NCBI GenBank assembly: GCA_014874365.1
Contig: JACWAH010000024.1
Span: forward strand, 1 to 64,000
DNA length: 64,000 bases
Direction: 5' to 3'
Source of the DNA: Thermoplasmatales archaeon
GTDB taxonomy: Archaea; Thermoplasmatota; Thermoplasmata; Thermoplasmatales; Thermoplasmataceae
A program made the position numbers and the translations under genes. Positions 38,205-43,506 of the stretch are shown here, one piece after another; positions within the stretch are counted from its first letter, which is position 1, and every line of letters starts with the position of its first letter. A model generated the notes under the pieces. It searched no databases, was not told the DNA's origin, and was given only the letters and a program-made list of their open reading frames with translations.

Positions 38205-39410
38205 ATGAGCGAGGCCGAAGATCCTCAGCGGAAGGTAACTTTCCGCTTACTCATTTTATCCAGGTCCCTGAGGAGCGTTGGAGTGATTTATGTTGTTCTT
38301 TCGCTCCCTCTTTATCTATTGAATTTTACAAACATCGTAACAATAGGTATCCTTTTTTCCATATCGGGGATTTCCACACTGCTGATCTCGTTATTTTCTG
38401 GACTCATGGGGGACAGAATTGGATACAAGAAAGTACTCATGCTTGTGGAAATACCCTCCATAATTTCAATGGTTGTGCTTGCCCTGTCGAGCAATACGCT
38501 GTTGATATTCATTGCAGTGGCAGTAGGAGGAACAGCTGGAACCCCGGGAGCAATGCGAGGGGCTTTTTCTCCCGGAGTAACTGCATACATTGCAACTCTC
38601 TGGAAAGAACGGGAGGAACGCGTAGATAAACTCTCACTGTTTACGGCTGTAGGCTCATTTTCTGCAATTGCCGGATCATTATTGTTGATAGCTAAGGGCT
38701 ACTTATTTAATGGGTTCAGTCCCGTCTATTCATACAGGATTCTTTATGGATTTTCCGCAATTATGATTCTTGTCTCCCTGCTAATGCTTTCAATGATGTT
38801 AACCGATCACCCGGTAAAAAGGCAGGTAAGGGTCATGAGGAAGAGCAGCTGGACTTACACTCTCAAGGTATCTGCTGGAAACCTGATGAACGGTATGGGT
38901 CTCGGATTGGCAATAGCCCTGCTGCCTGCCTGGTTACACTTAAGGTTCGATACATCTTCCACCACAATAGGCGAACTTTTCACCGCATCATACTTTTTTA
39001 CGGGAATTGCGTCTTTGCTTGCATCAAGTCGTTCAAATGTTGGGAGGGAAAGGCATGTCCTCATTGGAGGAATCACCAGGAGCGTTCAGGGAATATTGCT
39101 GATAGTCATTGCATTCCTTCCATCAATACTTTTCGTGGCAATAATTTATTCCATGAGGTCTATGGTGGCTGGATTCGGCGCGCCCATAAGAACCGCGGTT
39201 AACGTTGGAGGGATTTCAGAAGGGGATTACGGTTCCGCATCAAGCATCCAGGGTGTTTCCATGCGGGCCGGGCAGAGCACCTCAGCGATTTCAGGATACC
39301 TGATGTCCTACGATACTCTCCTGCCTTTGGTAGGAGGCGGATTGATACAGGGTCTTGGAGGGCTGGTGTATTACCTTATCCTGAAGTCCAGGAAATCAGT
39401 GGATGGATGA
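38205..39410 (+). CDS. MFS transporter
   Basis: 401 residues with about 12 membrane segments. The motif between helices 2 and 3 is GDRIGYKKVL, the MFS signature. It starts four bases after the aminopeptidase stop, so likely in one transcript; uptake or export of amino acids or peptides is a guess from that. Its end overlaps the converging metG stop by 15 bases. Confidence 0.85.
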   Translation: MSEAEDPQRKVTFRLLILSRSLRSVGVIYVVLSLPLYLLNFTNIVTIGILFSISGISTLLISLFSGLMGDRIGYKKVLMLVEIPSIISMVVLALSSNTLLIFIAVAVGGTAGTPGAMRGAFSPGVTAYIATLWKEREERVDKLSLFTAVGSFSAIAGSLLLIAKGYLFNGFSPVYSYRILYGFSAIMILVSLLMLSMMLTDHPVKRQVRVMRKSSWTYTLKVSAGNLMNGMGLGLAIALLPAWLHLRFDTSSTTIGELFTASYFFTGIASLLASSRSNVGRERHVLIGGITRSVQGILLIVIAFLPSILFVAIIYSMRSMVAGFGAPIRTAVNVGGISEGDYGSASSIQGVSMRAGQSTSAISGYLMSYDTLLPLVGGGLIQGLGGLVYYLILKSRKSVDG

Positions 39411-41516
39411 TCCCACGGCAGTATCCCCATCCGGCACAAGCGTATCATTATCCGCATACAGGACTTCCGTCTTGCCGTTAATATTGGCTGTGGCGACTTT
39501 TTTTGAATTTTCCTCCAGAACTTTGAGCGCAAACGATTTCAGGTCGTCTATCTCCACTGTTTCCTTACCATTGAAATGATGCTTTCCGATCCTGATGCGC
39601 GTGCCTTCGGGAGCATTTCCGCTTGGTGTGATAACTCTCGACTCGGTACCATCATCGGCTGCAAGCAGCATTCCGTTTGACTCCTCTGACCTTATCCTTG
39701 ACTTCTTGAGATTGGCAACTATAACTATCCTCTTCCCGACCAGGTCAGGAGCTGAATAGAATTTTCTTAGACCGGCAACTATCTGTCTTTCTTCTGATCC
39801 CAGGGATACCTTCAGTATGAACAGCCTATCCGCGTTCGGGTGTTCCCTGGCCTCCAGCACCTTCGCCACCACTAGATTGAGCGAATTTGGACCTTTCAGG
39901 TCCAGTGAAAGCTGTTCAAAAGGGATTTTCTCATGCACGGGATTGAATCTTACCGAACCGGCAATTATTTTCTCCGCCGTTGGAATGCTTATGTTGTCCT
40001 TTACTCCCAGTGATTTCCATATCCTTTCTGCCGAGGAGGGCAGGAAAGGGTATATTGTAAGCGTCATTATTCCTGCTATGCAGGCCAGTAAGTAAAGATC
40101 AGAGAGACATTTGCCCCTATCCTCTTTAATTGTTTTCCATGGTTGCAGCCGATTGAAGAGAGCATTACCTGTCTGAACAAAATCAACCCATCTCCTTAAT
40201 GCCTTCTTGATCTCCACGCCATCCATTAATTTGCCATATTCGACCAGGAATTCCCTTGCTTCGAGGATACCCAGTTCGAATTCCTTATTCGTGGTATGCT
40301 GCAGTACGATCTTGTTTGAAGAGATGAAGGTGGTCAGCCTGTTGATATAATTCCCGAACTTGCTAATTAATTCTGAATTTACCTTCTCCTGCAAATCCTT
40401 CAGTGAAAAATCAGCATCTCCGGTGTCAGGCAGTATTGATGCAAGGTAATATCGAAGGTAATCCATCGGAATTAGAGAAAGAGCGTCATCCACGGTGATG
40501 CCTATTCCCCTGCTTTTAGAGAAGTACTGGCCGTCCATTCTCAGATTTTCGTTCGCAGGTATATCATAAGGTAGAACAAATCGCCCATCCGCCATCAGTA
40601 CTGCAGGCCAGATTATCGAATGAAACGTGATATTATCCTTACCCAGAAAATAATAAGAACGTGTTTCCGGATCGGCCCAGTAACGCTTCCACAGTTCAGG
40701 ATCTTTCCTTTTCAGGGATAGCACTATAGAAGCAGAGATGTATCCCATCAGGGCTTCAAACCATACATAAATACGTTTATCCTCGTAACCAGGCAGGGGA
40801 ACTGTGACTCCCCAGTTTATGTCCCTTGTCACCGGACGGTCTTTGAGTCCTTCTCCTATGAATTTCAGGGTGAATGACTTAACGTTGGTTCTCCAATGGT
40901 TTTTCCTCGAAATGTATTCGTTTAATTTGGAAGAAAACAGGCTCAGCTTGAAAAACAGGTGTTCCGTCTTTCTGAATTCTGGTTCATCGTGGGATATCAC
41001 GCATAGTGGAGATTTCAGGTCCGTCGGATCAAGCGTATTGCCGCACTGGTCACACTGATCCCCTCTGGCGCTTTCGTTGCCGCAATAAGGACAAATTCCT
41101 TCGACGTACCTGTCCGGCAGGAACCTGTCACATGTCCTGCAATAAGGCGATACCATCGACCTTTTTTCAAGGTACCCATTTTCGTATAACCTAAGGAAGA
41201 TGTCGTGAACGAGTTTAGTGTGTTCCGGATAGGTAGTTCTTGAAAAAATATCAAAAGCAATATCCATGGCCCTGAATGAATTCTCATGTTCCGAATGGAA
41301 CCGATCTACTATTTCTGACGGCGGTACTTTCTGCTTATCCGCCGTAATGCTTATTGGGGTACCGTATTCATCGCTGCCGCAGATGAAGAGAACGTTATCT
41401 CCCAGCATCCTCCTATACCTGACAAATATGTCACCCGGTAAGTAAGCACCGGCAATATGTCCAAGATGCAGCGGAGCATTAGCATATGGGAGCGCGCAGC
41501 AGACTATCAGCTTCAG
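39396..41516 (-). CDS. metG: Methionyl-tRNA synthetase, apparent CTG start
   Basis: 706 residues if read from CTG 41516. The first ATG lies 36 codons in, which would delete the ATP-binding signature ALPYANAPLHLGH. Just upstream of the CTG is GAGGTGAT (41521-41528) with four bases' spacing, and an in-frame TAG directly before the CTG. Three CxxC pairs (CRTC, CPYC, CDQC) bind zinc; YFSKSRG is the KMSKS loop. After residue ~570 a C-terminal tRNA-binding OB domain (EMAPII/MetG type) is fused. Converges on the MFS gene. Confidence 0.93.
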   Translation of the reverse strand: MKLIVCCALPYANAPLHLGHIAGAYLPGDIFVRYRRMLGDNVLFICGSDEYGTPISITADKQKVPPSEIVDRFHSEHENSFRAMDIAFDIFSRTTYPEHTKLVHDIFLRLYENGYLEKRSMVSPYCRTCDRFLPDRYVEGICPYCGNESARGDQCDQCGNTLDPTDLKSPLCVISHDEPEFRKTEHLFFKLSLFSSKLNEYISRKNHWRTNVKSFTLKFIGEGLKDRPVTRDINWGVTVPLPGYEDKRIYVWFEALMGYISASIVLSLKRKDPELWKRYWADPETRSYYFLGKDNITFHSIIWPAVLMADGRFVLPYDIPANENLRMDGQYFSKSRGIGITVDDALSLIPMDYLRYYLASILPDTGDADFSLKDLQEKVNSELISKFGNYINRLTTFISSNKIVLQHTTNKEFELGILEAREFLVEYGKLMDGVEIKKALRRWVDFVQTGNALFNRLQPWKTIKEDRGKCLSDLYLLACIAGIMTLTIYPFLPSSAERIWKSLGVKDNISIPTAEKIIAGSVRFNPVHEKIPFEQLSLDLKGPNSLNLVVAKVLEAREHPNADRLFILKVSLGSEERQIVAGLRKFYSAPDLVGKRIVIVANLKKSRIRSEESNGMLLAADDGTESRVITPSGNAPEGTRIRIGKHHFNGKETVEIDDLKSFALKVLEENSKKVATANINGKTEVLYADNDTLVPDGDTAVGSSIH

Positions 41517-41599
41517 CTAGATCACCTCACTCACAATGCAACCGTATATTTTAGCATTTTATGGGAATTCATTCAAGGAATCCCTGATAAATTTGTCCA

Positions 41600-41611
41600 T
41601 ATTTATAAATA
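41600..41611 (+). promoter_or_regulatory. TATA promoter of the aIF1A-RIO1-KH operon
   Basis: TATTTATAAATAA is centred 27 bases before ATG 41633; leaderless first gene. Confidence 0.5.
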
Positions 41612-41632: not shown

Positions 41633-41965
41633 ATGCCGGAAGCAGGAACCGAAAACAGCATCGAAAGCATGAACGCACGAACAGTTATGCCTAATCGAAG
41701 AAAGGGAGAAATGTTCGGAATCGTAGAGAAGCTGCTAGGTGCCTCCAGAATGATGGTGATGTGTGAAGATGGTGTATCCAGGCTCACCAGAATCCCCGGT
41801 AAGATGAAACGAAGAATGTGGATAAGGGAAAGAGACCTCGTCATTATCAAGCCCTGGGATTTCCAGAGGGAGAAAGCCGACGTTGTTTACAGATTTACCC
41901 AGACACAGGCCAACTATCTCAGCAGAGGCAGCAAACTTCCTGAATTAATCAACATTTTCAAGTGA
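41633..41965 (+). CDS. Translation initiation factor aIF1A
   Basis: 110 residues. The OB fold shows MPNRRKGEMFGIVEKLLG, RLTRIPGKMKRRMWIR and DLVIIKPWDFQ. It binds the 30S A site during initiation. First gene of a cluster with RIO1 and a KH protein, as in other archaea. The cluster uses a strong TATA box. Confidence 0.96.
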   Translation: MPEAGTENSIESMNARTVMPNRRKGEMFGIVEKLLGASRMMVMCEDGVSRLTRIPGKMKRRMWIRERDLVIIKPWDFQREKADVVYRFTQTQANYLSRGSKLPELINIFK

Positions 41966-42041
41966 GATCAGGTGATCTGTTTTAGAGAAAAGTGACCCTT
42001 CCGCCCTTAAACAACTGATTGAACAAAAGGCGTTCAGGAAT

Positions 42042-42749
42042 GTGGAAGGTCTTGACAGAAAGACTGAGTCCCTTGTATTTGATAAGCGAACGATGACCGC
42101 CCTTTATAAAATAATGGAGGACCTGTCTATCGGCTACATTGATTATCCAGTATCGTCGGGAAAGGAATCTGTGGTTTTCAAGGCATTCATGAAGAAAAAA
42201 CCAGTTGCCTTGAAGATTTTCAAAATATCAACCATCAAGTTCTCGACTCTTGAAAAGTACATTTACGGTGACAGAAGGTTTGAGAAAGAACGAAAAGACA
42301 GATCAACGAGGGTATTCCTTTGGTGCAGGAAGGAATTCATCAACCTTCAGGAACTGCATAAAGCAGGGGTAAACGCTCCTATCCCAATTGGGTACAACAA
42401 GAACGTTCTTGTGATGCAATATCTCGGATCTGCCAAGAGTCCAGCTCCACTTCTGAAAAACTGCGATGGGGACTTCGACTCCCTTTTCAAAGTTATAAAG
42501 AATCAGATGTGGACAATGTACAACAAAGCAAGACTGGTGCACGCCGATCTGAGCGAATACAACATACTGGTGCATAAAGGAAAACCATACTTTATTGATG
42601 TTGGCCAGACGGTTGACAGAGATCATCCGTCCGCTGATGAGTTCCTGGAACGGGATATTTTTAATATCTGTAATTTCTTTAGAAGAAAAGGAGTCCCGGC
42701 AGACGCAAAAGAGTTGCTCAAATTCTTGAACGGTGAAAAGGTTGAATGA
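42042..42749 (+). CDS. RIO1-family protein kinase
   Basis: 235 residues from GTG 42042. ATP-site VSSGKESVVFKAF, catalytic LVHADLSEYNIL and metal-binding FIDVGQTV match RIO1. It matures the small subunit. The frame is open back to 41976 and codes for a RIO1-like helix; AGGTGATC at 41970-41977 lies before it, but only GTT or TTA are near, so a longer, non-canonically started form is possible. Confidence 0.92.
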   Translation: MEGLDRKTESLVFDKRTMTALYKIMEDLSIGYIDYPVSSGKESVVFKAFMKKKPVALKIFKISTIKFSTLEKYIYGDRRFEKERKDRSTRVFLWCRKEFINLQELHKAGVNAPIPIGYNKNVLVMQYLGSAKSPAPLLKNCDGDFDSLFKVIKNQMWTMYNKARLVHADLSEYNILVHKGKPYFIDVGQTVDRDHPSADEFLERDIFNICNFFRRKGVPADAKELLKFLNGEKVE

Positions 42750-43296
42750 AGAAATAAGGATCCCGAAAGAGAGAATTCCTGTCTTGATAGGAAAGGGTGG
42801 AGAAGCCAAGAGAAAACTGGAAGAACTTGGCAAATCTGATATAACTGTTAACTCTTCAACGGGTGATGTTTTTATCAGGGGACGCGAAGATGCCCTCCTG
42901 ACGCAAAGCACTTTCGAGGCAGTTAAAGCAATAGGGAGAGGATTTTCATTCGAGAAATCTCTTGCTCTTTACAATGATGGGATACAACTTGCAGTGATTT
43001 CGCTGAGGGAATTTGCAAAAGCGAAATCACACAGGTTACATGAGATGAGGGCCAGGCTCATAGGGAAAGATGGTAGAACCAGGGAGATCATGGAAGAACT
43101 TACCGGAACTAACATTTGTGTTTATGGAGACACAGTCTCTGTAATCGGGGATTTAATTCCAATACAGTACGCAATTCATGGTATTGAGATGATAGTTAAC
43201 GGGAGAAAGCAGAGAACTGTCTATCAGTTCCTAGAAAAAGCCACCAGGGAGATCAAGACCAAGAGACTGGAACAGTCCTTTGACGGAACTCCCTGA
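42742..43296 (+). CDS. KH-domain RNA-binding protein (Dim2/Pno1-like)
   Basis: 184 residues from TTG 42742, five bases after GGTGA (42732-42736). Two KH folds: IPVLIGKGGEAKRKLEELG and ARLIGKDGRTREIMEELTG. Dim2/Pno1 helps 16S rRNA maturation. Overlaps RIO1 by eight bases. The frame could extend to GTG 42733, but the SD fits the TTG. Confidence 0.92.
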   Translation: MNEEIRIPKERIPVLIGKGGEAKRKLEELGKSDITVNSSTGDVFIRGREDALLTQSTFEAVKAIGRGFSFEKSLALYNDGIQLAVISLREFAKAKSHRLHEMRARLIGKDGRTREIMEELTGTNICVYGDTVSVIGDLIPIQYAIHGIEMIVNGRKQRTVYQFLEKATREIKTKRLEQSFDGTP

Positions 43297-43431: not shown

Positions 43432-43506
43432 AGCGGGGTAGGGTAGTTAGGAAATCCCGACGGGCTCATAACCCGTAGACCAATGGTTCAAATCCATTCC
43501 CCGCTA
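43432..43506 (+). tRNA. Initiator tRNA-Met (CAT)
   Basis: Acceptor arms AGCGGGG/CCCCGCT pair fully. The anticodon arm is ACGGG-CTCATAA-CCCGT, anticodon CAT. The three G-C pairs at the stem's base and the A1-U72 pair are archaeal initiator marks. The T-arm is AATGG-TTCAAAT-CCATT. No intron; CCA is not encoded. Discriminator A at 43506. Confidence 0.95.

Follow-up and report, generated by a model that had tools for sequence, protein, structure and literature searches.

An apparent CTG start codon behind an extended Shine-Dalgarno sequence in the methionyl-tRNA synthetase gene of a Thermoplasmatales archaeon and its relatives

The window, by which we mean the whole 64,000-nucleotide stretch of DNA analysed, carries on its minus strand metG, the one copy of this gene found in the genome (G000). 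The features of its 5' end are collected in Table 1. The product combines a full class I catalytic domain (Pfam tRNA-synt_1g, E 3e-149, residues 4-394, profile positions 2-390) bearing a HIGH-like signature with a tRNA-binding C-domain (tRNA_bind, residues 548-640), as in an archaeal-type methionyl-tRNA synthetase (MetRS), and scores 652.7 bits against the NCBIfam methionine--tRNA ligase model NF001100, for which the cut-off is 587. In the best solved structure, 1rqg, chain residue 4 aligns with residue 3 of the protein read from CTG, so that the product of this reading would be essentially full length.

Table 1. Coordinates of the metG features in the window, and of a HAM1-type gene
Feature	Coordinates	Strand	Remarks
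metG, methionyl-tRNA synthetase	39396..41516	-	706 codons counted from CTG, plus stop
CTG, putative start codon	41514..41516	-	sole near-cognate codon at Shine-Dalgarno spacing; CTG in G001/G002, ATG aligned in G003
In-frame TAG directly 5' of CTG	41517..41519	-	TAA in G001 and G002
Extended Shine-Dalgarno GAGGTGATC	41520..41528	-	perfect 9-nt complement to 16S 3' end (GATCACCTC)
HLGH signature, codons 17-20	41457..41468	-	absent from the product if the first ATG is used
First canonical start, ATG, codon 37	41406..41408	-	rejected as main start: codons 2-37 under synonymous selection
TAAAATA, candidate TATA-like box	41547..41553	-	-37 to -31 from CTG
HAM1-type XTP/dITP diphosphatase	C19:119861-120472 (L166:15861-16472)	-	CTG start

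Read on the minus strand, the 5' end of metG runs GAGGTGATC-TAG-CTG-AAG-CTG-ATA, and the bases of TAG overlap the end of the Shine-Dalgarno (SD) spacer. GAGGTGAT lies at 41528-41521, CTAG at 41520-41517 and CTG at 41516-41514, which confirms the spacing of four bases between SD and CTG given in a preliminary description of this DNA. Downstream of CTG, the gene continues with AAG CTG ATA GTC TGC TGC GCG CTC CCA TAT GCT AAT GCT CCG CTG CAT CTT GGA CAT. There is no ATG, GTG or TTG in the metG frame between TAG and codon 37, and hence no usable canonical start upstream of the conserved N-terminus. As TAG is in frame with metG, any start further upstream would need recoding. The 3' tail of this genome's own 16S rRNA is GGATCACCTCC, to which GAGGTGATC is a perfect 9-nt SD at proper spacing. 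The duplex at the metG CTG has 9 contiguous matches and an energy of -16.3 kcal/mol, the strongest at any potential non-canonical start codon in 675 kb of G000 with 541 gene-like ORFs. The stretch around TAAAATA is alike among four genus members, and TAAAATA may be the metG promoter, giving a very short leader that bears the SD.

The same arrangement was found in two other species of the genus, and this conservation, with the strength of the SD, indicates that it did not arise by chance. In G001, whose MetRS is 75% identical, GGTGAT is followed by TAA-CTG-AAG-CTG-ATT, and in G002 (79% over a fragment) by TAA-CTG-AAG-TTG-ATT, both with the spacing seen in G000. In G003 (67% identical), ATG-AAG-GCG-ATC stands at the position aligned with the CTG of G000. 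A fourth CTG at the aligned start was found in another genus, in G009 (AAGGAGGAGAGAAAT-CTG-AAG-ATA). The preliminary description had named an ATG at this site in close relatives as evidence against its CTG start. This comparison mostly favours CTG, which is kept in two of the three same-genus species (G001 and G002), and the objection holds for G003 only. With TAG directly before CTG, no ATG, GTG or TTG for 36 codons and CTG kept in sister species, the proposed start is strongly supported.

A start slightly further into the gene, at another non-standard codon (CTG at codon 3, or ATA/ATT at codon 4), would shorten the enzyme a little. The AAG-CTG-ATA after the start does offer a second CTG at codon 3, with TTG there in G002 as a weaker alternative. 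However, the downstream codons would have an SD spacing 6-9 nt longer than that of codon 1, near-cognate starts in the family share a single spacing (6-8 in the units of the SD survey), and codon 1 is where the ATG of G003 falls in the alignment. We regard such a start as improbable. Still less probable is an artefact of sequencing, assembly or a single strain, in which the true base would be A and the start ATG. Although the genus members are all metagenome assemblies and one of them, G003, has ATG, the retention of CTG in two sister species, with ATG aligned in the third, argues that CTG is not a base error. These two species (75-79% protein identity) and the separate genus each have CTG in their own stop and SD context, and a HAM1 gene shows the identical CTG pattern in eight genomes. 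Readthrough of TAG/TAA from an upstream GTG (GTG-AGT-GAG-GTG-ATC-TAG), for which G000 does have a short GTG-started frame ahead of TAG, or a frameshift from an upstream ATG, has hardly any probability, as G001 and G002 have TAA for a stop, the upstream region differs from G003 by indels and lacks protein-like conservation, and relatives do not share the small ATG ORF found upstream in G000. Sequencing error, readthrough and upstream frameshift ORFs were all rejected.

Codon comparison extends the coding region to CTG itself. Over codons 2-37, synonymous and non-synonymous codon differences numbered 17 and 3 against G001, 21 and 3 against G002, and 21 and 1 against G003, and they fall mostly in third positions. 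Since the differences are mostly synonymous, this region appears to be translated right up to CTG. That metG begins at ATG 41408, its first canonical start codon, or that the gene is decaying, is accordingly extremely improbable: such a start would remove HLGH and Pfam positions 2-33 (the match would start only at profile position 34, not 2, and its score would fall from 497 to 441 bits), and synonymous constraint on codons 2-37 is strong in what is the sole metG copy found. Annotation programs limited to ATG, GTG and TTG would cut 36 residues off MetRS, an essential enzyme, through the active-site motif, and the same limit would also damage HAM1-type genes.

The collection searched contains 77 Thermoplasmataceae genomes, and the metG start was assigned by hand in the 64 where it could be aligned to the family N-terminus x-K-I-L-V-N-C-A. 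The aligned codon was ATG in 40 genomes, TTG in 10, GTG in 1, CTG in 4, ATA in 4, ATC in 4 and ACG in 1. In six genomes the conserved core is preceded by no canonical codon whatsoever; the number rises to eight with G002 and G025, in which the canonical alternatives lie too far from the SD. Five Thermoplasma genomes show GAGGTGGT-NNNN-ATC/ATA or AAGGTGAT-NNNN-ATA. The alternative in Thermoplasma is a GTG inside the SD, with SD energies of its own of -2.1, -2.0 and -6.6 kcal/mol vs -14.5, -14.5 and -10.9 for the near-cognate codon. Because this GTG has little SD of its own, near-cognate metG starts are likely, although not certain, in the five genomes.

The SD duplex follows the class of the codon. 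For the 13 near-cognate starts the median energy was -12.3 kcal/mol, compared with -9.8 at the 11 GTG/TTG starts and -3.9 at the 40 ATG starts. The difference between near-cognate and ATG starts was significant (Mann-Whitney p 2.7e-7, and 3.4e-5 without Thermoplasma), as was that between non-ATG and ATG starts on genus medians (p 1.5e-4), a level at which relatedness is only partly removed. Read directly from the aligned sequences, non-ATG metG starts accompany strong SDs across the family. One archaeal family offers a natural series of ATG, GTG, TTG, CTG, ATA, ATC and ACG at one metG position, with SD strengths matched. This series makes archaeal start-codon stringency directly testable, and it includes cultured Thermoplasma species.

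The CTG start is not peculiar to metG: a HAM1-type XTP/dITP diphosphatase gene in the same genus also uses CTG, and it is the clean second case. Of 34 family genomes, 8, belonging to three genera, have CTG as its start, while ATG, GTG or TTG occupies precisely this position elsewhere, and its leader, GGAGGAG-(A/G)TA-(T/C)GT, is nearly identical in most. Two control genes, LeuRS and aIF2-gamma, start canonically in all 30 genomes each. Compared with these controls, metG and HAM1 stand out as unusual, with Fisher tests giving 0.006 for metG (8/64) and 0.0002 for HAM1, the latter value being descriptive, as HAM1 was chosen for being unusual, and genomes of one genus not being independent. Further non-standard starts are probably present elsewhere in the genus.

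A relaxed start code throughout G000 was considered and rejected. As a class, near-cognate codons show no SD enrichment in this genome (3.4%, with 12.8% at canonical codons and 3.6% at the remaining ones), which indicates that odd starts are confined to a few genes rather than being genome-wide. Absence of the fidelity factor aIF1 was likewise rejected as a cause, since aIF1 was found in G000; a search of 41 genomes recovered it in 39.

The literature agrees with the preliminary description that CTG starts are rare. Only 2 of 61,358 ancestral AUG starts had switched to CUG in a survey of 36 prokaryote groups (PMC5622118), whereas metG retains its CTG in more than one species, and CTG starts appear again in another genus and in a second gene. 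Loss of AUG in prokaryotic start-codon switches tends to accompany a stronger SD (PMC5622118). A review of archaeal translation names AUG, GUG and UUG as the sole archaeal start codons (PMC7531240). The components of SD-led archaeal initiation (SD, aIF1, aIF1A and an initiator-type tRNA) are all present here, yet CUG lies outside the reviewed start set (PMC7531240). No report of an archaeal CTG start was found in the open-access literature.

In bacteria, near-cognate starts behind strong SDs have been described. The infC gene (IF3), with its AUU/AUA start, likewise is conserved and belongs to the initiation apparatus, and its near-cognate codon follows a strong SD; an AUA start with an extended SD has been reported for infC of S. 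aureus (PMC13009471). In contrast to infC, the gene described here is an archaeal MetRS gene, its codon is CUG and varies between genera, and an autoregulatory factor would be hypothetical. In reporters, S. aureus cvfC1 (AUU) and ccpN (AUA), both with an extended SD, reached roughly 10% of the level of AUG, and ccpN rose to 30% when the medium was rich (PMC13009471). In these genes an extended SD-antiSD duplex helps the weak codon, as we propose for metG, although the S. aureus cases are bacterial and experimentally mapped, while the CTG start of metG is predicted from sequence. The text of that study has 0 matches for CUG. Given that the archaeal review names only three start codons and that AUG to CUG switches are so few, the conserved CTG of metG, together with the recurrence of other near-cognate codons at its start, appears to be new for archaea as far as the open-access literature shows.

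Taken together, these findings suggest that metG is very probably translated from CUG, with the extended SD offsetting the weak codon. The 9-nt SD-antiSD duplex would place the 30S subunit on the metG mRNA so that CUG is left in the P site, where initiator Met-tRNA would presumably read it through a first-position mismatch, giving full-length MetRS. Weak codon and strong SD would thereby compensate each other. We infer from this arrangement that initiation does occur at CUG and that Met is the first residue; any effect on expression level would likewise be conjectural. The preliminary description suggested that a CTG start could give low, tuned expression, but the SD is exceptionally strong and might make up for the weak codon. 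In the family, the metG start may have repeatedly drifted or been selected among ATG, TTG and GTG and, in several genera, CUG, AUA, AUC or ACG, the odd codons staying functional where the SD is strong. In Sulfolobus, aIF1 has been reported to discriminate against non-canonical start codons (PMC6237735). Since aIF1 is present here as well, the strong SD of metG probably offsets this penalty.

A regulatory role may be added to initiation at CUG and would not replace it. The near-cognate start could be a device that makes MetRS output sensitive to initiation stringency or to the supply of initiator Met-tRNA, as with the AUU/AUA start of infC, and we consider this attractive but doubtful. Near-cognate metG starts do recur in five genera (g6 being ambiguous) vs 0 of 60 control genes, and genes for aIF1A and an initiator-type tRNA-Met adjoin metG in G000. 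However, HAM1 starts in the same way although no feedback role is obvious for it, close relatives carry ATG in metG, neither G003 nor G002 shares the metG neighbourhood, and a signal of low Met-tRNA would reduce MetRS rather than increase it. By analogy with infC autoregulation, the wider proposal that the Thermoplasmataceae metG start is a control point, at which output follows initiation stringency or the charging of initiator Met-tRNA and codon and SD strength co-evolve to set it, and thus an archaeal counterpart of that system, seems slightly less likely again.

The tRNA-Met(CAT) gene at window positions 43432-43506 (plus strand) has initiator-type features (5' A, GGG/CCC anticodon stem). 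Near it lie aIF1A (41633-41965), rio1, a gene for an archaeal KH protein (42733-43296) and metG. The proximity of rio1 to the initiator tRNA gene is also seen in G003, where metG sits elsewhere. A palindromic TATTTATAAATA occurs at 41598-41609, about 30 bases ahead of the aIF1A ATG (41633); at this distance, aIF1A may be leaderless, with metG using its own TAAAATA instead.

Other genes with possible odd starts came from an ortholog comparison of G000 with G003 (334 pairs, at least 45% identity). In four genes only, metG, the HAM1-type gene, rio1 and a phosphoesterase gene (C19:211483, a further candidate for a non-standard start), the first canonical start lies at least 20 codons inside a convincingly conserved coding block. 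Most of the 57 G000 candidates were local alignments that extended into the leader ahead of a common ATG, and were discarded by eye. A CTG in the Lhr helicase gene (C3:29998) was dropped, as relatives differ at the site. A B12-binding radical SAM protein gene of G000 (C4:48954-50423; L188:8954-10423) has CTG-AAA-ATA vs ATG-AAA/AAG-ATA in relatives, and an ABC ATPase gene at C19:74374 has a possible ACG start that is kept in G003. In rio1 (plus-strand frame 41976-42746 of the window), the first canonical start is at about GTG 42045-42047, some 20 codons into the conserved block. Its leader (41970-41984) reads AGGTGATC and then, at fixed spacing, TTA (41982-41984). This TTA behind GGTGAT is kept in 4 of 4 genus members, with ATA in G008 and ATG in G007 and G009; a UUA start of rio1, if used, would be stranger than CUG.
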